Source of the DNA: Agrobacterium tumefaciens str. B6
GTDB lineage: Bacteria; Pseudomonadota; Alphaproteobacteria; Rhizobiales; Rhizobiaceae
Length of the DNA stretch: 64,000 nucleotides
Reading direction: 5' to 3'
NCBI RefSeq assembly: GCF_001541315.1
Contig: NZ_LMVK01000012.1
Location: 496,001-560,000, forward strand
Shown piece after piece: positions 18,399-50,334 of the stretch. Both the position numbers and the translations under genes were made by a program. Positions within the stretch are counted from its first letter, which is position 1; every line of letters begins with the position of its first letter. Below the pieces are notes generated by a model. The model saw nothing but the letters and a program-made list of their open reading frames with translations, ran no database searches and was not told the origin of the DNA.

Positions 18399-21300
18399 TC
18401 AGTTGAACCGGCCCGCGGCATGGGCAAGCATCGTATAGACCTTGCCGGTATCGGAGGTGAGGTAGGACTGGGTGACTGTCCGGTCGCGATCCGTGCGGGC
18501 CACATCGGCGAGCAGCTTTTCGAAATCGGTGATGTAGCGGTCCACGGCGGTGCGGAATTCAGCCTCCCGCTCGTATTTGCGCTTGATCTCGTCAAACGTC
18601 GTCTGGCCCTTCAGCGTGTAGAGGCGACGGGTGAAGACGTCGCGCTCGCCGCGCTGGTAACGGCGCCACAGTTCCACGGACGCATCGTGGTCGATGGCGC
18701 GGGCGATGTCGACGGAGAGCGAGTTCAGCGATTCCACCATGTGCCGCGGATTGCGGGTATCGGCCGCACGCGTTGGCTGCTGCTCGGTGCGGGGTGCGGA
18801 AGCGGCTGCCGTTTCCTGTGAGGCGCCGCGCAGAAGATCGCTGATCCAGCCACCGCCTTCTTCACGACGTCCAGCGGGAGCGGCAGCGCCAGTGGGAGCC
18901 GGGGCAGGTGCCTGACGGTTCTCGACCTGGCGGTTTTCAAGCGGCAGGGTGCCACGCAAGGCAGGGGCAGCAGCAGGCTGCGGCTGTGCCGGGCGCTGTT
19001 GTACCGGAGCGGCTGCTGCCGGCTGCGGACGCGTCTCGACGCGGCGTTCAGCGGCAGGCTGGGTCGCGGCGATGGCACGGGCGACCGGTTCGGACACTTC
19101 CATCTGGTGGGTCGAACGACCGACAAGGGGGGAAATATCCTGCAGGGCCTTGATCTGCTCGGAAACGGCGCGGCGCATGGCGGCAGCGCTTTCCTTGGCT
19201 TCTTCCGGCAGGTCGAAGGCGCCGCGCTTCAGTTCGGCGCGTGTCGCATCCAGCTCGCGGCGGATGTCGTGGCTGGAGCGGCGGATTTCGTCCGTTGCAC
19301 CGGCAAAGCGGCTAACGGCTTCCTCGACGGCCTGACGCAGCGTTTCCTTGAGGTTGGCGGCGGCGGCATTCGATTTTTCCGAGGCGCTGCCCAGAAGATT
19401 GTCGACTTCCGAAAGCGAGGACTCGACACCGCCGCGCAGGCGGTTCACCAGCTCGTCGGAGTATTTCTGCGCGTCGGAGAGCGTGCTTTCGATCGAGCGG
19501 CTGGCATCCTGACCGGCGGAGAGCAGGGCGCCCCGCATGGTCTGTGCCGCCGAGCGGGCGCGCTGTTCGGTCTCGTCGAGCGAGCGGCCGATATCGGTGA
19601 AGGACGCCTGCAGATTGTCACGCAGATTGCCGGCGACATTCTGCGAACGCTCTTCGGCTTCGTTGAGCGTGGTTTCCACGACGCCGACGACGTTGCGCAT
19701 GGCGCTTTCGATTTCCTCGGAGCGCTTGACGAGGCCGACGGACAGGCTGCGCAGCGCATCCTGGCGTTCCTCCAGCGTGCCGACGAGGCTCGACTGTGCG
19801 GCATTGAGCAGTTCGGATGCCTGGCTCAGCACCTTCGAATGTTCTTCGAAGCGTCCGACGATACCGGCAACCTGCGCCAGCGTCTGGCCGGAAATATTCG
19901 ACAGGCGGTCGATCTTTCCTTCGAGCAGACGGCTGGAGCTGGACACCATGTCGGCGGCCTGCGAGGCAGATTCGGAGAAGCGGGTCGCCGAGGCGTTCAA
20001 TGCCTCATCTGCCGCGCCGAAGCCCTGTGCGGCGCGCTCAACGGCGGAATTGAAGTTGGTTGCCGACTGTTCAACGATCTCTGCCATGCTGTTATGGGTC
20101 TGCGACAGCATGTCCGTGCTCTGGCGGGTGGCGGCGACCAGCTTGTTGGCGGCATCGCTGCCGGCGCGGGCATATTTGTCGATGCCCTGTTCGACGGCGT
20201 CCGCCATAGCAGTATGGGTCTCGGACAGCATATCCGTGCTCTGGCGGGTGGCTGCGACGAGCTTGCCCGCCGCATCCGTTCCGGCAGCGGCATAGTCACT
20301 GATCGCCTGTTCCACCATGCCGACCATGCCGCTGTTGCTCTGCGAGAGAAGCTCGGCGCTCTGCTGGGCGGCGGAAACGATCTTCTCGGCGGCTTCGCGG
20401 CCGATGGTGGCATATTCGTCGACGATAGGCTTGGCTTTCTCCTCGATCAGGCGAGACAGCTCCGCAGAGCGGCTGGCCAGCATCGAGTTGAGTTCGCGGG
20501 TGCGGTTGTCCAGCGCCGAGCGGATGGATTCGCCGCGCGCGTCGAGGGCCGATTCGACACCCGTCAGCGTTTCGGAAATGACACCGACCTGAGAGCGGAC
20601 GACGGCTTCAGCCTCGGCAACCTTGTTGACGATAATGTTGCCTGCCTCGGAGAAGGTCTGGGCCACGGCGGCGGCCTGGCCGGAGAGACGGGTCTGCGCA
20701 TCCGAGATGCGGTTAACGATCTCGCCGGAGCGCTCTTCGATGGCCTTGGTGAAGGCTTCGTTCTGCGCCTGCACCTGTTCTGCAAATTCCGAACCGGATT
20801 TCGAGAGCAGGGCGGATGAGCGGGCCGCTTCATCGCCGATGCTCTGGGTGGCCGACGTGACCGCGCCGCGCAGGCTGACAGCGAGATCGCTCGCCTTGCC
20901 TTCAATGGTGCGGTTGACGTTTTCGAGGCCGATCGTCAGCGCACGGTCCATGGTGCCGAGGCGCTCATCGATGCGGGCCGTGCCGCTATCGAAGGTTTCT
21001 GCCAGGCGGCTGGTGCGGCTTTCCAGCGTATCTGCGACACGCGTGGTCTGTTCGTCCAGAATGCCGGTGATGCGCTCGGCGGCCTCGTCGCTGGTGCGGG
21101 CGAACACGGCCGTCTTGTCTTCCAGCGCGTCGGCGAAGCGGCGGCCGGCGTCCTCGATCGAGCTGTTGACGTTGGCGAGATCGCCACCGACGCGGGTCTG
21201 CAGGGTGTCGAGAGAGGTCTCGATGCGGGCGCCTGTCTCGTCGAGACGGGTTGTGACATTGCCGATCGATGTTTCGATGCGGGCGGAGAGGGCGTCGGTG

Positions 21301-24300
21301 GCCCCGCCGATTTCGCGGGCTGCCTCGCCGATCTTGACGGCGATATCACCGGCGCTGTTGCGAAGACGCTCTTCCAGCGTCGCAGCACTGCCGTCGATTG
21401 CCTTCTGCAGCGTGTCCTGCTGGGTCTCGAGCGACAGTTCAAGCATGCTGGCGCTGGAGGCGACCGTGGTGCCGATCATCATAGCCTGCTCGGAAAGCAT
21501 GTCGCCCATCTGCGTCGTGGCGGAGCTGAGCGTCGCAGCAAGGTCCGCCTGGCGCTGGTCGAGCGCCGTGCGAATATCCTCATGCGATTGCGAGAGGTTG
21601 GTTTCGAGGCGGGACACACCTTCTTCCACCGTCTGGGCAAAACGGGTGCTGCCGTCTTCAACGACGCTTTCGATGCGGTTGGCCGCGCCCGAGACACTCT
21701 GCTCGATCAGGCCGCTATTGCGCTCCAGCGAGCCGGCAATGCGCTCGGCCTGCGAGCCGAGCATGGTTTCGAGCCGCTCGTGACCGCTGGCAAGCGCGTT
21801 CTCAAGCGTGAATGCGGTGGATTCGAGACGCTGGCCGACACCGGCCGCCGCAAGCGAAAGCGACGATGCTCTGGCATCCATCGCCTCGGCGATACGCTCC
21901 TCGACACCAGAAATCGTCATATCGAGCGCAAGAGTGCGGCTGTCCAGCGCATCCGCGATGCGTTCTTCCGCGCCTGCCACGATGCCGGAAAGGGCAGCGG
22001 TACGGCTGTCCAATGCGTCTGCAATGCGGTCTTCGACACCGGAAACGGCGTTCTGCAGGGCCGTGGTGCGACCATCGAGGATATCGGCGATCTTTTCCTC
22101 GACGCCGGAGAAGCTCATGTCGAGCGCCATGGTGCGGCTGTCGAGAACATCCGCAATCCGCTCTTCGGCGCCGGAAACGACGGTCTTCAGCGAATCCGTG
22201 CGGCTGTCAAGCGCGCTGGCAATACGGGTCTCGGCGCCGGCCACCAGTTCGCCAAGGGCTGCGGTGCGCGTGTCGAGCGCTTCGGTGATTTTTTCCTCCG
22301 CGCCGGAGAATGCCATGTCGAGCGCCATGGTACGGCTGTCGAGCGCATCGGCGATGCGTTCTTCAGCGCCGGAGACCACGGCGTTGAGAGCGGCGGTGCG
22401 GCCATCCAGCGTTTCCGCGATACGGGTTTCAGCACCGGCGACCACGTCGCCGAAGGTGGCCGTGCGGCTGTCGAGCGCGCCGGCGATTTTCTCTTCAGCG
22501 CTCGCCACAATGCCGGTGAGGGCAGAGGTACGGTTGTCGAGCGTCTCGGACAGTCTTTCCTCGACATTGGCAAAGGTCATGTCGAGCGAAAGGGTGCGGC
22601 TGTCCATCGTATCGGCGATGCGTTCCTCGACGCCGGAAATGGCGCTGGAAAGAGCGGCCGTGCGGCCGTCAAGCGTATCGGCGATACGGCTTTCCGCACC
22701 GGCGACGACGTCGTGCAGGGCAGCCGTGCGGCTTTCCAGCGTATCGGAAATACGATCCTCGATGCCGGAAACAGCACCGGTGATGGCGGCAGCCCGGGTT
22801 TCGAGCGTTTCCGAAAGGCGGCGCTCGACATCGGCAACGACACTGTTGATCGCGGCGGCGCGTTCGTCGAGCATGGCGGCAAGGCGTTCGGCCGTGCCGG
22901 AGACGGAGCCGGTAATCGCCATCGAACGGCTGGCGAGTGCCTCGTCGAAACGGTTCTGGCTGGCTGAGAGCGCGCCGAACAGGGCGTTGCTGCGTTCCGA
23001 CAGCACAGCGTCGATCTTCTCGTGAGAATTGGCGAAGGCGTCGGTGATTTCGGCGGTGCGCTGGCCGATCGCGTCGCTGAAGGCCTGTGTCCGGATTTCA
23101 AGCGCGCTTTCCAGCATTTCCTGACCCGTGCCCAGCGCAGTTGCAAGCGCCAGCGACTGATCGGTCATGGTGGTGCCGATACGCTCCAGACCGGCGCTCA
23201 GCATGGTGTCGAGCGCTTCGGAGCCGCCGGCAACGGTTTCGTTGATGCGGGCGAGACTTTCCATCAGCTTGCTGTCGAGGCTGCCGGCGCGCTGGTCGAA
23301 GGCGCTGGCGAATTGCGCCACATGCACGTCGAAGGCCGAGTTGACCTGGCCTACCGTCGCCTGCATGCGCTCCTCGTAGAGGCCGGAGCGAAGATCGAGA
23401 TCCATGATCGCATCGTCAGCCGTGCTCTGCAGGCTCTGGCGGAAGGAGAGGCCCTTTTCTTCAAGCGTCGTGGACAGCTTATCGAGAACCGTATCGAGCG
23501 AACCGCCGATGACCTGCTGGCCGCGTTCGATATTGCGGTTGAGTTCCAGCGTGCGGTTGGACAGCGTCTCGTTGAGCTGGCGGGTGCGTTCCTCAAGCGC
23601 GCTGTTGAGGCTTTCCACGCCGCTATCCAGCGTCGAAGCATGGATCGCGAAACGCTCCAGCAGCACTTCACCGCGCTCGTCCAGCGTCGAGGTAAGATTA
23701 TGCAGGCGCATGTCGAATTCGTTGGAGATCGTCGAGCCCGAGGAGTTCAGCGCCTGGAGCAGGTTTTCGGTCTTGGCGGCGATCAGGCTGCCCATCGCTT
23801 CGGTCGAGGCGCGCGATTTTTCGAGCAGCGCAGCCGAACGCGTGTCGATCATAGAGGCGAAAGCCTCGCCGGTCGTGGCGATCCGCATCGAAAGCTCTTC
23901 GCCGACGATGGAAAGCTCTTCTTTAATCTGTTCCTGCGCGCCGACGATGGAGGAGCGGATGCGCTCGGCGTGATTGACGATGGCGTCACGCTCGGCGGTC
24001 AGTTCCTGCACGAGGCTGCGCACGCGCAGTTCATTGTCGGCATAGCTGCGTTCGAGCGCGTTGACTTCGGAATGAACGAGGGTTTCGAGTTCCGTCGCGC
24101 GGGCGATTGTTCGCTCGATGCCGTCATTCATGGCCGAGACTTCGCGGCGAACCGCCTGGCCGACGGACATGATGCGGTCGGATGCCACGGTTTCCGGTTC
24201 CGCAAGGCGAAGGGCGACTTCGGCCATGGAGCGGGCGGCATTCCGCAGATCGCGGGCGCGCGCCATCATGATCGCGAAGGCGAAGAACAGCATGATGGGA

Positions 24301-24746
24301 ACGAGGATGCCGACGACGATTGCCATCAGGCCGGGGATAGCGGTGAGATCAGCCAGCGAGGCGATGTTCCAGAGCGCATTGCCATAGAGAAGATGTGCGA
24401 TACCAAGGCCGCCGAGCGCCCAGATGACCGACATGATCGTGGCGTTGCGCAGCGCGCCGCCGATGGAGCCGCCTTCCAGCGATTTCAGGATCATGGCCGG
24501 GCTGCGCTTGGAACCGTCATTGGCCGCTTCGAGATTGGGCGATCTGGGTGTCTGTTCGGCAGGCGCGCGCGCGGCCTCGGGAGCAGGGGTCTGTCTGCTT
24601 GCTTCCTTCAATCTGGCCTCCGGCTGCTTCGGCGCTGCAGTTTTCCGCGTCTCCGGCTTTTCTTCGAAAGCGCCAAGCTGCAGGGCATCTTCCAATGCCT
24701 GAAATGCAGTCTCGTCGACAGAGTCGCTGATCTTGTTATTCGCCAT
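18399..24746 (-). CDS. gpr: Growth pole ring protein (giant apolipoprotein-like coiled-coil membrane protein)
   Basis: A 2115-residue protein. The length, repeat character and surrounding genes match the Agrobacterium GROWTH POLE RING protein (RgsE in Sinorhizobium), known to form a ring at the growing pole and to be needed for polar growth and rod shape; this identity is from recall. Residues about 40-95 are Pro/Ala/Glu-rich. Hydrophobic segments (about 105-160; IMSVIWALGGLGIAHLLYG and LMAIVVGILVPIMLFFAFAIM) anchor it in the membrane. A very long helical region follows, including fifteen exact-length 22-residue repeats at 640-969 and three 40-residue repeats near 1443-1562. A Pro/Gln/Ala linker (about 1895-1975) leads to a conserved C-terminal domain (HMVESLNSLSVDIARAI to AHAAGRFN). 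MANNKISDSV at 24746, with GAGG upstream, is taken as the start rather than the longer frame from 24794. Confidence 0.92.
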   Translation of the reverse strand: MANNKISDSVDETAFQALEDALQLGAFEEKPETRKTAAPKQPEARLKEASRQTPAPEAARAPAEQTPRSPNLEAANDGSKRSPAMILKSLEGGSIGGALRNATIMSVIWALGGLGIAHLLYGNALWNIASLADLTAIPGLMAIVVGILVPIMLFFAFAIMMARARDLRNAARSMAEVALRLAEPETVASDRIMSVGQAVRREVSAMNDGIERTIARATELETLVHSEVNALERSYADNELRVRSLVQELTAERDAIVNHAERIRSSIVGAQEQIKEELSIVGEELSMRIATTGEAFASMIDTRSAALLEKSRASTEAMGSLIAAKTENLLQALNSSGSTISNEFDMRLHNLTSTLDERGEVLLERFAIHASTLDSGVESLNSALEERTRQLNETLSNRTLELNRNIERGQQVIGGSLDTVLDKLSTTLEEKGLSFRQSLQSTADDAIMDLDLRSGLYEERMQATVGQVNSAFDVHVAQFASAFDQRAGSLDSKLMESLARINETVAGGSEALDTMLSAGLERIGTTMTDQSLALATALGTGQEMLESALEIRTQAFSDAIGQRTAEITDAFANSHEKIDAVLSERSNALFGALSASQNRFDEALASRSMAITGSVSGTAERLAAMLDERAAAINSVVADVERRLSETLETRAAAITGAVSGIEDRISDTLESRTAALHDVVAGAESRIADTLDGRTAALSSAISGVEERIADTMDSRTLSLDMTFANVEERLSETLDNRTSALTGIVASAEEKIAGALDSRTATFGDVVAGAETRIAETLDGRTAALNAVVSGAEERIADALDSRTMALDMAFSGAEEKITEALDTRTAALGELVAGAETRIASALDSRTDSLKTVVSGAEERIADVLDSRTMALDMSFSGVEEKIADILDGRTTALQNAVSGVEDRIADALDSRTAALSGIVAGAEERIADALDSRTLALDMTISGVEERIAEAMDARASSLSLAAAGVGQRLESTAFTLENALASGHERLETMLGSQAERIAGSLERNSGLIEQSVSGAANRIESVVEDGSTRFAQTVEEGVSRLETNLSQSHEDIRTALDQRQADLAATLSSATTQMGDMLSEQAMMIGTTVASSASMLELSLETQQDTLQKAIDGSAATLEERLRNSAGDIAVKIGEAAREIGGATDALSARIETSIGNVTTRLDETGARIETSLDTLQTRVGGDLANVNSSIEDAGRRFADALEDKTAVFARTSDEAAERITGILDEQTTRVADTLESRTSRLAETFDSGTARIDERLGTMDRALTIGLENVNRTIEGKASDLAVSLRGAVTSATQSIGDEAARSSALLSKSGSEFAEQVQAQNEAFTKAIEERSGEIVNRISDAQTRLSGQAAAVAQTFSEAGNIIVNKVAEAEAVVRSQVGVISETLTGVESALDARGESIRSALDNRTRELNSMLASRSAELSRLIEEKAKPIVDEYATIGREAAEKIVSAAQQSAELLSQSNSGMVGMVEQAISDYAAAGTDAAGKLVAATRQSTDMLSETHTAMADAVEQGIDKYARAGSDAANKLVAATRQSTDMLSQTHNSMAEIVEQSATNFNSAVERAAQGFGAADEALNASATRFSESASQAADMVSSSSRLLEGKIDRLSNISGQTLAQVAGIVGRFEEHSKVLSQASELLNAAQSSLVGTLEERQDALRSLSVGLVKRSEEIESAMRNVVGVVETTLNEAEERSQNVAGNLRDNLQASFTDIGRSLDETEQRARSAAQTMRGALLSAGQDASRSIESTLSDAQKYSDELVNRLRGGVESSLSEVDNLLGSASEKSNAAAANLKETLRQAVEEAVSRFAGATDEIRRSSHDIRRELDATRAELKRGAFDLPEEAKESAAAMRRAVSEQIKALQDISPLVGRSTHQMEVSEPVARAIAATQPAAERRVETRPQPAAAAPVQQRPAQPQPAAAPALRGTLPLENRQVENRQAPAPAPTGAAAPAGRREEGGGWISDLLRGASQETAAASAPRTEQQPTRAADTRNPRHMVESLNSLSVDIARAIDHDASVELWRRYQRGERDVFTRRLYTLKGQTTFDEIKRKYEREAEFRTAVDRYITDFEKLLADVARTDRDRTVTQSYLTSDTGKVYTMLAHAAGRFN
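21840..22829 (-). repeat. Fifteen tandem 66-bp (22-residue) repeats inside gpr
   Basis: Consecutive units of exactly 22 residues with the consensus [VA]-E-E-R-I-A-D-A-L-D-S-R-T-x-A-L, then six variable residues ending in S/A-G. Unit 1 begins VERRLSETLE at 22829; unit 15 begins VEERIAEAMD at 21905. There are no insertions or deletions. 22-residue amphipathic repeats are typical of apolipoprotein A/E-like domains. Confidence 0.9.
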
Positions 24747-25224
24747 GCGGTTACGCCTCGTTACACATACGCCCGGCTTCATGCCGTTGACCACTTGCGA
24801 TCCGCAAGCAGACTGCCGCCATCATGCCAGCGGAACATCATCCCTTTAAAAGATAACAATTCCGCCATTTACCAAATCCCGAATTGCTGGTGGTCCAGCT
24901 TTCGGGCGAAATTACATCACTGTGCCGCAATAACAAAGCTTGAGCTTAAGCCCTGCGGGAACGGCAGTACCGTAGTGACACATTTAGGTGTTCGAAACAA
25001 TTAATGCGGATTTGCGGCGGTGGCGAAGTGTCGGCTTTTTAACAGTTTTTAAACCTGAGTTTCACGCTGAACGCCTTGTTTCGCATAAGTTTAACATAAA
25101 TTAACCATAGCAGAAGATTTTCGCCTGCGTCACGCCGTAATTTAAGCCGATAGCAGCCGCCCGGATGCGTGAATACGACACAGATGTGACACGAAACAGG
25201 AAACGGTGAGACAGGATTTCAGCC
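24747..25224. other. Divergent promoter region, gpr / Hpt gene
   Basis: 478 bases without a supported gene. It is AT-richer than its surroundings and should hold both promoters. Two TTAA-N6-TTAA elements lie at 25039-25052 and 25091-25104, the second continuing as TTAACCAT, which resembles CtrA half-sites. No ORF with a ribosome-binding site was seen. Confidence 0.45.
25039..25104. promoter_or_regulatory. Two CtrA-like TTAA-N6-TTAA sites
   Basis: TTAA-CAGTTT-TTAA at 25039-25052 and TTAA-CATAAA-TTAA at 25091-25104. The CtrA consensus from Caulobacter has a 7-base spacer; these have 6, so the assignment is tentative. They lie between gpr and the Hpt gene. Confidence 0.3.
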
Positions 25225-25593
25225 ATGGCAGCGGTCAGTATTGTTTTCGAAGCTCCCGATAATTGCGGCGGCGCGCCTGCCACCGGTAAAAAACCGATCG
25301 ATTTCGATCATCTCGCCCGGCAGACGATGGGCGACAAGGATCTGGAGATCGAGGTGCTGCAACTCTTCAGCCGCAACGCCCGCGCCGCCCTGCATGAAAT
25401 GGCGGGCGCGGACAACAAGACCGTCATGGCGACGGCCCACCGTCTGAAGGGGTCGGCGCAGGCCGTCGGCGCATCCGCCGTTTCCGCAGCCGCGGCAGCA
25501 GTGGAAGACAAGGGCAATGACAGCGCGGCGATCGCAAAACTTGCCGCAACCATTGTCGAGGCTGAAAATTTCATCCTCAAGCTCTGCCGCTGA
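25225..25593 (+). CDS. Histidine phosphotransfer (Hpt) domain protein
   Basis: A 122-residue protein consisting of one Hpt four-helix domain. The phospho-accepting histidine is H72 in TAHRLKGSAQAVGA, the family signature. The preceding helix (FDHLARQTMGDKDLEIEVLQLFSRNARAALHEM) is also typical. Such stand-alone proteins pass phosphate between a hybrid kinase and a response regulator. The partner is unknown; CckA (10 kb away) normally uses ChpT, which has a different fold, so no link is claimed. AGG lies upstream of ATG 25225. It is divergent from gpr. Confidence 0.88.
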   Translation: MAAVSIVFEAPDNCGGAPATGKKPIDFDHLARQTMGDKDLEIEVLQLFSRNARAALHEMAGADNKTVMATAHRLKGSAQAVGASAVSAAAAAVEDKGNDSAAIAKLAATIVEAENFILKLCR

Positions 25594-25723: not shown

Positions 25724-26044
25724 ATGACAAAACTGACCATCGTTGCCTTTGACGGCACGCCCCATGAACTCGACGTGAGCAACGGTTCCACCGTCATGGA
25801 GAATGCCGTGCGCAACTCCGTACCCGGCATCGATGCGGAATGCGGCGGCGCCTGCGCCTGTGCGACCTGTCATGTCTATGTGGATGATGCATGGGCGGAA
25901 CGCGTCGGTGGACCCGAGCCGATGGAAGAAGACATGCTGGATTTCGCCTTCGACGTGCGCCCCACCTCGCGGCTCTCCTGTCAGATCAAGATGAATGACG
26001 AGCTTGATGGTCTCGTCGTTCATGTTCCCGAGCGCCAGGGCTGA
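25724..26044 (+). CDS. fdxB: [2Fe-2S] ferredoxin, adrenodoxin/FdVI type
   Basis: A 106-residue cytoplasmic electron carrier. The cluster ligands follow the C-x5-C-x2-C...C pattern: C40, C46, C49 and C86 ([13 protein letters not shown] and SRLSCQIKM), with a further non-ligand Cys at 44. The region [28 protein letters not shown] is the conserved part of adrenodoxin-like ferredoxins. Homologues serve Fe-S assembly or monooxygenases, but no partner is adjacent. It is a monocistronic gene 130 bases after the Hpt gene. The identification is firm; the symbol is by analogy. Confidence 0.9.
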
Positions 26045-26065: not shown

Positions 26066-26096
26066 CAGAAAAAGCCCCGCTCACCTAGTAGCGGGG
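26066..26096 (-). terminator. Rho-independent terminator of a minus-strand transcript
   Basis: Stem CCCCGCT (26075-26081) / AGCGGGG (26090-26096) with an 8-base loop. On the minus strand it is followed by CTTTTTCTG. No T-run exists on the plus strand, so it does not serve the ferredoxin gene. No protein gene ends here, which points to a small RNA. Confidence 0.6.
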
Positions 26097-26276
26097 AGCG
26101 GGGCGAGGCGGGTACGCGCATGCAGGCGGGGGAGGAAACCCCTGCGAGCCCTCAAGTGCGCACCGGGAGAACCGGAGACGGTTGCAACCGCCGGACCCGC
26201 CTTGGGCCGCAACCATTTCAAACCGTATGAACAAGCTACAATGAGTCTTGCCGGCCGCACCACGGCGAGAATTCAC
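26070..26276 (-). ncRNA. Candidate small RNA of about 200 nt with its own promoter and terminator
   Basis: A minus-strand transcription unit between the ferredoxin and DUF922 genes: promoter-like elements at 26282-26310, a terminator at 26066-26096, and no credible protein frame between. The body folds: GGCGGGT (26107-26113) pairs with ACCCGCC (26195-26201) and encloses GCGCA / TGCGC (26116-26120, 26157-26161), an arm GCAGG / CCTGC (26122-26126, 26141-26145), and a hairpin on the 12-bp palindrome CGGTTGCAACCG (26179-26190) flanked by CCGG repeats. It was not recognised as 6S, SRP, RNase P, tmRNA or a known riboswitch. Confidence 0.45.
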
Positions 26277-26281
26277 GGGTG

Positions 26282-26310
26282 ATATAGGACATGACGTTAC
26301 GTCATGTCCG
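26282..26310 (-). promoter_or_regulatory. Promoter with embedded 23-bp palindrome upstream of the candidate small RNA
   Basis: On the minus strand CTATAT (26287-26282) matches the rhizobial -10 consensus; CGGACA (26310-26305) sits 17 bases upstream as a -35. A perfect inverted repeat GGACATGACGT-T-ACGTCATGTCC (26287-26309) spans the spacer, as a repressor operator would. Confidence 0.45.
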
Positions 26311-26350: not shown

Positions 26351-26977
26351 TCAGCGACGATTCTGGCCCTGCTCGAGCCGGTTTTTCAAAAGCCGGGTCA
26401 TGCGGGCATCGAAATTTTTCGATTCCACGACGTCGAAGCGCATCTGGTCCCGGTCATGCTCGTCCATCACCGTCTGGGTGATCTTGCCGACCATTTCCTG
26501 TAGCGTCTCGCAGCTTTTCTGCGGCCGAAGCGAGGTCAGCTGTCTTTCAAGCGAACGGGCATGGGTGCGGGCGATTTCCGCATGGCGCTCCTCGTGGCGC
26601 TTGATATCGGCAAGCAGCGTATCCCAGATGAAGGCCAGTTCCGCCGTGGTGCGACGGCGGTTTTTCCATTGCGGCAGGAGAATGCGGGTGTTTAGCACCA
26701 CTTTGGCGGTTCCGACGCTGCAAAGGCCGTTTTTCTCCACATAGGTGAGCTCGCCCCCGAATTTGATTTCGGTAGCGCCGGGATGGCGCGCGCCGGTATT
26801 GCGGGTCAGGGGGCCGTGCTTGGAAAGCTGCTGGTCGAGATCGGCCGCCGTTTTGCCGCCAATCGAAAAATAGGAATAGGTCTTGCGGACGATGGTGTCG
26901 GAAAATGCCGATCCGGGTAGGGAAAGTGCCATTGCGCCCGCCAAAGCGACGCAAAGAGCACGTGATGATTTAGTCAT
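26351..26977 (-). CDS. DUF922 exported zinc-protease-like protein
   Basis: A 208-residue protein with a signal peptide (VALAGAMALSLPGSAFS, cleavage near 26) and a DUF922 domain. The mature part opens YSYFSIGGKTAADLDQQLSKHGP, has the pair of cysteines C86 and C156, and carries a zincin motif H128-E-E-R-H132 (HEERHAEIA). This predicts a periplasmic metallopeptidase, but activity has not been shown for the family as far as I know. It is divergent from the folate operon. After its stop comes the small-RNA region rather than an obvious terminator. Confidence 0.85.
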   Translation of the reverse strand: MTKSSRALCVALAGAMALSLPGSAFSDTIVRKTYSYFSIGGKTAADLDQQLSKHGPLTRNTGARHPGATEIKFGGELTYVEKNGLCSVGTAKVVLNTRILLPQWKNRRRTTAELAFIWDTLLADIKRHEERHAEIARTHARSLERQLTSLRPQKSCETLQEMVGKITQTVMDEHDRDQMRFDVVESKNFDARMTRLLKNRLEQGQNRR

Positions 26978-49566: not shown

Positions 49567-50334
49567 ATGGCATTGCCCGATTTTTCTATGCGTCAGCTTC
49601 TGGAAGCTGGTGTTCACTTCGGCCACCAGACGCACCGCTGGAACCCGAAGATGAAGCCGTACATCTTCGGCGATCGTAACAACATCCACATCATCGACCT
49701 GGCTCAGACCGTTCCGATGCTGTCGCGCGCCCTTCAGGTCGTGTCCGACACCGTTGCCCGTGGCGGCCGCGTTCTGTTCGTCGGCACCAAGCGTCAGGCG
49801 TCCGAAATCATCGCCGACAGCGCAAAGCGTTCGGCCCAGTACTACGTCAACTCCCGCTGGCTCGGCGGCATGATGACCAACTGGAAGACCATTTCGAACT
49901 CGATCCAGCGTCTGCGCAAGGTTGACGAAATCCTGAACTCGGAAGGCTCCGGCTACTCCAAGAAGGAACGCCTGAACCTTGAGCGCGAGCGCGAAAAGCT
50001 TGAAAAGGCTCTCGGCGGTATCCGCGATATGGGCGGCGTTCCGGACCTGATGTTCATCATCGACACCAACAAGGAAAAGATCGCGATCGAAGAAGCCAAG
50101 CGTCTTGGCATTCCGGTCGTTGCGATCATCGACAGCAACTGCGACCCGGACCATATCGACTACCCGATCCCGGGTAACGACGATGCTTCGCGCGCCATCT
50201 CGCTCTACTGCGACCTGATTGCCCGCGCTGCCATCGACGGTATTGCCCGTCAGCAGGGTGCTTCCGGCCGCGACATCGGCGCTTCTGAAGAAGCTCCGAT
50301 CGAGCCCGCTCTCGAAGACGAGGCTGGCGCCTGA
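49567..50334 (+). CDS. rpsB: 30S ribosomal protein S2
   Basis: A 255-residue S2. Signature motifs are [65 protein letters not shown] and [31 protein letters not shown] short acidic C-terminal tail ([15 protein letters not shown]) follows. AAGGAGTAACAAGGC precedes the ATG. It heads the translation/lipid cluster, with a strong hairpin before tsf. Confidence 0.98.

Follow-up and report, generated by a model that had tools for sequence, protein, structure and literature searches.

The window, by which we mean the whole 64,000-nucleotide stretch of DNA that was analysed, carries a 2Fe-2S ferredoxin gene (Fer2; 25724–26044, plus strand) and a DUF922 gene (26351–26977, minus strand) separated by a spacer. 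Within this spacer lies a full-length match to the small RNA (sRNA) Atu_C7 (26069–26225, minus strand), the gene of which is situated directly downstream of the DUF922 gene on the same strand and is convergent with the ferredoxin gene. A small Hpt-domain (histidine phosphotransfer) protein is specified upstream of the ferredoxin gene (25225–25593, plus strand). The longest open reading frame lying mostly inside the spacer amounts to 95 amino acids, and a 146 amino acid frame opposite DUF922 reaches the edge of the spacer only. With no convincing frame present, the original prediction, made from the letters of this DNA, was right to place no protein gene here.

Screening of the window against Rfam revealed two elements above their cut-offs, an rpsB element and family RF02501 (Atu_C7). 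The latter was matched by nucleotides 26225–26069 of the minus strand over model positions 1–157 of 157, with 169.7 bits (E-value=5.7e-40) against a gathering cut-off of 45 bits, and the locus is a member of the family by score. RF02501 was presumably taken by Rfam from Wilms 2012. The Rfam scan had been proposed as a check by the original prediction, which considered the unit unannotated and could not match it to 6S, SRP, RNase P, tmRNA or a riboswitch; it belongs to a catalogued family, the C58 copy of which has been seen on Northern blots.

In the C58-like genome (G005) the RF02501 match is at 1345653–1345809 on the minus strand, coinciding with the published place of sRNA C1_1345805R. The latter (Lee et al. 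2013, Table 4, row 10; PMC3738593) has ends at 1345805 and 1345651, is 155 nt long by RNA-seq, and appeared on Northern blots as two bands, of ~200 and ~140 nt, which according to that paper may represent two promoters or processing. Its ends convert to approximately 26221 and 26067 in the window. The RPKM values without TEX were 471 in YEP log phase, 1602 in YEP stationary phase, 3667 in AB medium and 1634 in AB plus acetosyringone; in AB medium the +TEX value (7684) exceeded the −TEX value (3667), and in YEP medium +TEX was not above −TEX (PMC3738593). The prediction of a minus-strand small RNA is thus borne out by the family match and the published C58 transcript, and that of a regulated one by the differences between media in C58. 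The window copy resembles C1_1345805R and RF02501 in full-length sequence, strand and terminator and, as regards C58, in mapped position. It departs from the family in nothing essential, the differences being a few substitutions, one missing base and GGGG/CCCCC around the loop. We are highly confident, as to both identity and anatomy, that this locus represents the trans-encoded sRNA Atu_C7 in its Agrobacterium version.

No reported function for Atu_C7 appeared among the papers listed by the literature searches, several of which extended to the best-ranked entries, Wilms 2012 lying outside their scope. PMC2573895 and PMC2245857 make no mention of folP, fdx or ferredoxin, and ferredoxin, fdx and Atu13 are absent from the available text of PMC3596533, Table 1 apart. 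The available part of PMC3927594 assigns C1, C2, C5, C6 and L5 to families and does not name C7.

The order DUF922 – Atu_C7 – ferredoxin is conserved among relatives. The RF02501 model found matches in 46 of 151 genomes including that of the window, 38 of them above the cut-off, and in the first 46 loci the sRNA gene is adjoined by DUF922 in every case and by ferredoxin in 44. In 86 further loci, where neighbours were sought within stretches of 1.5–3.1 kb, both genes were present in 78, DUF922 only in five, ferredoxin only in one and neither in two. Our own model of Atu_C7, built from 34 sequences, found matches in 108 of 394 Rhizobiaceae genomes, covering 26 of 109 genera of this family, and a few of these matches were weak (near E 1e-4); the weak family matches G040, G045, G170, G260 and the second of G297 were left out of the locus set. 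Among 397 genomes drawn from the order, 28 matched, those with E-values below 1e-14 belonging exclusively to the same family and the best match outside it reaching 4.2e-9. The matches listed in named records include Sinorhizobium meliloti, S. fredii, Rhizobium leguminosarum, Ensifer, Shinella and Neorhizobium. All four copies tested (S. meliloti, S. fredii, R. leguminosarum and Shinella) passed RF02501.

The secondary structure was investigated for the single copy and comparatively. The minimum-energy fold of a 221-nt stretch is unremarkable (z=−0.94; 32 of 200 shuffles equal or better), for which reason the comparative fold is to be preferred. The latter was derived from 34 of the first 46 loci (alignment A1), nine near-identical Agrobacterium loci being omitted together with L042, L045 and L046, which have a different 3′ end. 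It consists of one long hairpin, with an 8-bp closing stem, an inner 4-bp stem and a CCUCC loop, followed by a terminator; this is the architecture of RF02501, an inner hairpin within the closing stem and then a terminator, and it was found in the 34 sequences. The named pairs form in 97.2% of the alignment cells, the window copy included. Changes on both sides of a pair were observed in 10 of 21 pairs and 86 cells, whereas shuffles averaged 30.4 such cells and slid structures gave no more than 16, so that the covariance check suggested at the outset came out in favour of a conserved fold; the number of further pair types was not above that in shuffles (137 of 500 reach it). In the closing stem alone, five of eight pairs had changed on both sides and 97.8% of cells were paired. 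The 5′ third of the RNA is not shared beyond close relatives.

In the window this core hairpin occupies 26111–26164 (minus strand). The covariation-backed closing stem pairs GGUGCGCA with GCGUACC, or in DNA terms GGTGCGCA (26164–26157) with GCGTACC (26117–26111), and encloses the inner hairpin. Relative to the consensus stem, the window copy lacks one pair. A body closed by a 7-bp stem around two arms had been proposed. Hairpin structure is indeed present, and that particular stem is less solid: GGCGGGUC, which closes the minimum-energy fold, encloses three arms and is not the conserved stem.

The T-tailed hairpin of the original prediction is present as an intrinsic terminator (GCCCCGCTC / GAGCGGGGC then TTTTT; 26069–26104, minus strand), which was recovered by the terminator scan, the consensus fold and covariation, and it is conserved among relatives. 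Its weight comes from this conservation, because the scan gave four terminator-like sites in 1.5 kb versus 1.8 expected. In L042, L045 and L046 the usual terminator sequence at the matched 3′ end is replaced by GAGCGGCAGG...CCGCTCAATCT.

In an effort to define the promoter, the regions upstream of Atu_C7 were searched by expectation-maximisation. From 132 regions 115 were used, 17 being dropped as at least 90% alike over the last 150 bases; L072 was excluded for its short stretch and loci repeating a genome were not counted twice. This revealed a conserved block with the consensus AATnAcYGGTGAaTTCTaGcgATgGcgc (26255–26288, minus strand; about −30 to −65), present in 90 of the 115 non-redundant regions with scores above 8 and missing in 25. 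None of 575 shuffles reached that score, a comparison that favours the real regions since the model was fitted to the regions it scores; five of 115 reverse complements exceeded 8 and none 15. The genome contains no other match to the block with fewer than three mismatches.

Downstream of the block a −10 stands at a fixed distance. Among the 89 strong cases, 57 have a sequence agreeing with TATAAT at four or more of six positions when read at offset 49 (counted from the start of the block), versus 14 or fewer for other offsets between 30 and 75, and TA is present at offset 49 or 50 in 88; these columns lie outside the 34 fitted block columns and were not seen by the block model. In S. meliloti the block is followed by GACTC-AGC-TATATT. 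The −10 of Agrobacterium is weak, and its distance from the block exceeds that in most other genera by one base; in the window it reads TAGCTT (26233–26238, minus strand), with three of six positions in agreement with TATAAT. By eye no TTGACA-like −35 stands out, that place being occupied by the block, which is the reason for inferring an activator-dependent promoter; the block is probably an activator site in place of the −35. The block begins 82–121 or 161–271 nt before the core, and from this variation the 5′ part of the RNA must vary in length between genera.

The RNA-seq 5′ end in C58 and the start of the Rfam model agree on the proximal start. Together with the block and its −10 they place the main start, as read from sequence and published ends, near 26221–26226, rather than near 26275 as originally proposed. 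The resulting RNA of 155–157 nt begins with a 5′ part of low conservation, has its covarying core in the 3′ part and ends with the intrinsic terminator. A transcription factor bound to the block would switch Atu_C7 on in poor (minimal) medium, as suggested by the lack of a conserved TTGACA-like −35 and by the higher levels in C58 in minimal medium.

The distal start rested on CGGACA (26310–26305) and CTATAT (26287–26282) on the minus strand, 17 bases apart, and on an operator palindrome overlapping them, by which a regulator would control an RNA of ~208 nt. Both boxes, with their spacing, and the palindrome exist, the palindrome is kept with no or one mismatch in all 21 best-matching loci, and the ~200-nt band beside that of ~140 nt (PMC3738593) has the length expected from such a start, so that an additional, distal start in the vicinity of 26275 may exist. 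Conservation tells against the boxes. CTATAT, which forms the 5′ edge of the conserved block, was found in the window copy but was lacking from all 22 other close loci, two of which have CTATCT and the rest CGATAT, CGATCT or CGATTT; C58 itself (L002) has CGATAT at this place and shows the ~200-nt band regardless. The pair was not listed by a promoter scan that used its own consensus, the mapped 5′ end and the Rfam start are both proximal, and the conserved −10 lies downstream. We regard the distal promoter as an unlikely source of the main transcript, and the proximal start as the one from which the RNA is chiefly made.

A perfect 23-bp inverted repeat, the palindrome, is present at 26287–26309, as claimed, with its centre ~74 bp upstream of the main start; it lies upstream of the conserved promoter. 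It has one match in the window, and none of 100 shuffles contained one even with three mismatches. Of 46 loci, 16 have its 19-bp core (ACATGACGTNACGTCATGT) without mismatch, five have it with one mismatch and two with three or four, and 23 lack it (six or more mismatches); the perfect and one-mismatch cores all belong to best-matching Agrobacterium loci. In five of these 21 best-matching loci a single mismatch breaks a pair, with no compensating change, a pattern that favours a protein site over an RNA hairpin. The palindrome is probably an extra, putative protein site gained by the lineage of close Agrobacterium. Two other roles were considered for it. As the operator of a multi-site regulator it would be expected in several genomic copies, yet the 5.65-Mb genome contains one exact site and one with three mismatches, a search of the whole genome gave no second copy within two mismatches, and no regulon was found. 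As a terminator of DUF922 it lacks a T run after it on the minus strand. In loci such as L053, L055, L060, L064 and L074, direct repeats of the AAGCTTGCGC kind or the DnaA-box-like TGTGAATAA were noticed by eye upstream of the block or at its edge, where close Agrobacterium have the palindrome.

A GANTC site, GACTC (26243–26247, minus strand), lies just upstream of the −10, and this raises the question of whether Atu_C7 belongs to the CcrM/GcrA cell-cycle circuit, the site coupling transcription to replication. In S. meliloti, as in Agrobacterium loci, GACTC directly precedes the −10, L028 retains a GANTC with another middle base (GAATC), and the idea looked promising in the first 46 loci. Once other genera were included, 45 of 89 loci had the site near the −10 and 44 lacked it, having for example AAATC (Shinella), AGATGAG or AAGTTCG instead, and the available part of a paper on A. 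tumefaciens CcrM names no such sRNA (PMC11514494). Membership of the cell-cycle circuit is on this evidence improbable. It is very unlikely that the RNA acts in cis, either processed from the 3′ end of the DUF922 mRNA or controlling the convergent ferredoxin gene: the position just 3′ of DUF922 on the same strand, converging on ferredoxin in a conserved order, is what such a role would predict, but inheritance suffices to account for that order, Atu_C7 has its own conserved promoter, +TEX exceeds −TEX in AB medium (PMC3738593), and the RNA ends at ~26067–26069, short of the ferredoxin stop codon at 26044.

An action in trans was considered from the sequences left unpaired. The apical loop TTTCCTCC (26131–26138, minus strand) is unpaired in the consensus fold, its CCTCC being at least 90% conserved in the 34 sequences, and resembles an anti-Shine-Dalgarno sequence; CCUCC has been lost in L043. 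Since the complement of the loop is a Shine-Dalgarno sequence, pairing at ribosome sites is proposed, in which the exposed UUUCCUCC loop would bind the Shine-Dalgarno sequences of trans mRNAs and block their translation. In the window copy GGGGUUUCCUCCCCC surrounds the loop and may make part of the seed inaccessible. Immediately 5′ of the closing stem, outside the consensus stems, lies TTCTCC (26166–26171, minus strand), a possible second pairing site with four of six positions at least 90% conserved; as unpaired UUCUCC it perhaps aids the pairing of UUUCCUCC.

Candidate targets would be solute-uptake genes with GGGAGGAAA sites. In the genome of the window GGGAGGAAA followed by ATG occurs at 18 sites, 15 of which have a frame of at least 55 amino acids, and eight of these 15 specify uptake components: four Peripla_BP_4 proteins, one other solute-binding protein, one TctC receptor, one ABC ATPase and one permease. 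Under the same frame requirement the control AAGGAGAAA (19 of 24 sites) gave no uptake genes in 19, which differs from the GGGAGGAAA set with a Fisher p of 3.5e-4 that is post hoc, the uptake class having been named after the genes had been seen, and derives from small sets in one genome. The control AAGGAGGT (12 of 17 sites) gave one in 12 and is weak, with 17 matches versus eight for the reversed sequence, so that about half are expected by chance and many are probably not start sites. In four genomes GGGAGGAAA sites numbered 18, 18, 20 and 19, the class being scored in the window's own genome. Duplex energies of the candidates were disregarded because the sites had been picked for complementarity. 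The bias of GGGAGGAAA may reflect a ribosome-site habit of uptake genes, common to other anti-Shine-Dalgarno RNAs. Control of uptake genes through pairing of the loop with their Shine-Dalgarno sites is a lead, and a rather doubtful one.

The closest parallel in action is with AbcR1 and AbcR2, the alpha-proteobacterial ABC-transporter sRNAs. The likeness is by proposed action alone, a loop complementary to the Shine-Dalgarno sites of uptake genes; they differ from Atu_C7 in locus and family. AbcR1 of C58 is a separate transcript, C1_2163256F, at suhB (PMC3738593), and the Rfam scan of the window gave no match to an AbcR-type family at the Atu_C7 locus. One might tentatively picture Atu_C7 as a Rhizobiaceae-wide partner of AbcR, a second, unrelated anti-Shine-Dalgarno RNA that would be induced by an activator in poor medium through the −35-less block and would shut off the GGGAGGAAA uptake genes; we hold this to be possible, at rather long odds.

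ChvR of Caulobacter crescentus is likewise a trans sRNA with higher levels in minimal medium, and it acts by pairing through a stem-loop; it was likened to Atu_C7 by description, and differs in that it needs ChvI and has the single target chvT (PMC6237742). ChvI was rejected as the regulator acting on the block, its motif in Caulobacter being TTGC-N3-GCAA (PMC9731502), which by look is unlike the Atu_C7 block. EcpR1 and GspR, the cell-cycle sRNAs of Sinorhizobium, are also conserved rhizobial trans sRNAs that act by pairing. EcpR1 (SmelC291), however, groups with C6 of A. tumefaciens, and the GspR gene lies between SMc03844 and SMc03845 (PMC5928217, PMC3927594).

As a discovery the locus is ordinary, the gene being known from Rfam and from blots of the C58 copy. 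What is added here is a covarying core hairpin with its UUUCCUCC loop, a probable start, a promoter block with its −10, and a candidate class of targets. Relatives across the Rhizobiaceae, the bearers of Atu_C7 including plant pathogens as well as nitrogen-fixing symbionts, keep the fold, the start signal and the exposed sequence resembling the complement of a ribosome site, and the block offers a handle for finding the regulator of Atu_C7.

Two other features of the window were noted. The Rfam rpsB element (RF01815; 49451–49564, plus strand) scored 40.5 bits against a cut-off of 40 and lies directly upstream of a frame (49567–50334) that by eye resembles ribosomal protein S2, of which it is probably the leader. 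On the minus strand, 18399–24794 specifies a repetitive 2131 amino acid frame that by eye appears coiled-coil-like and contains many similar segments.
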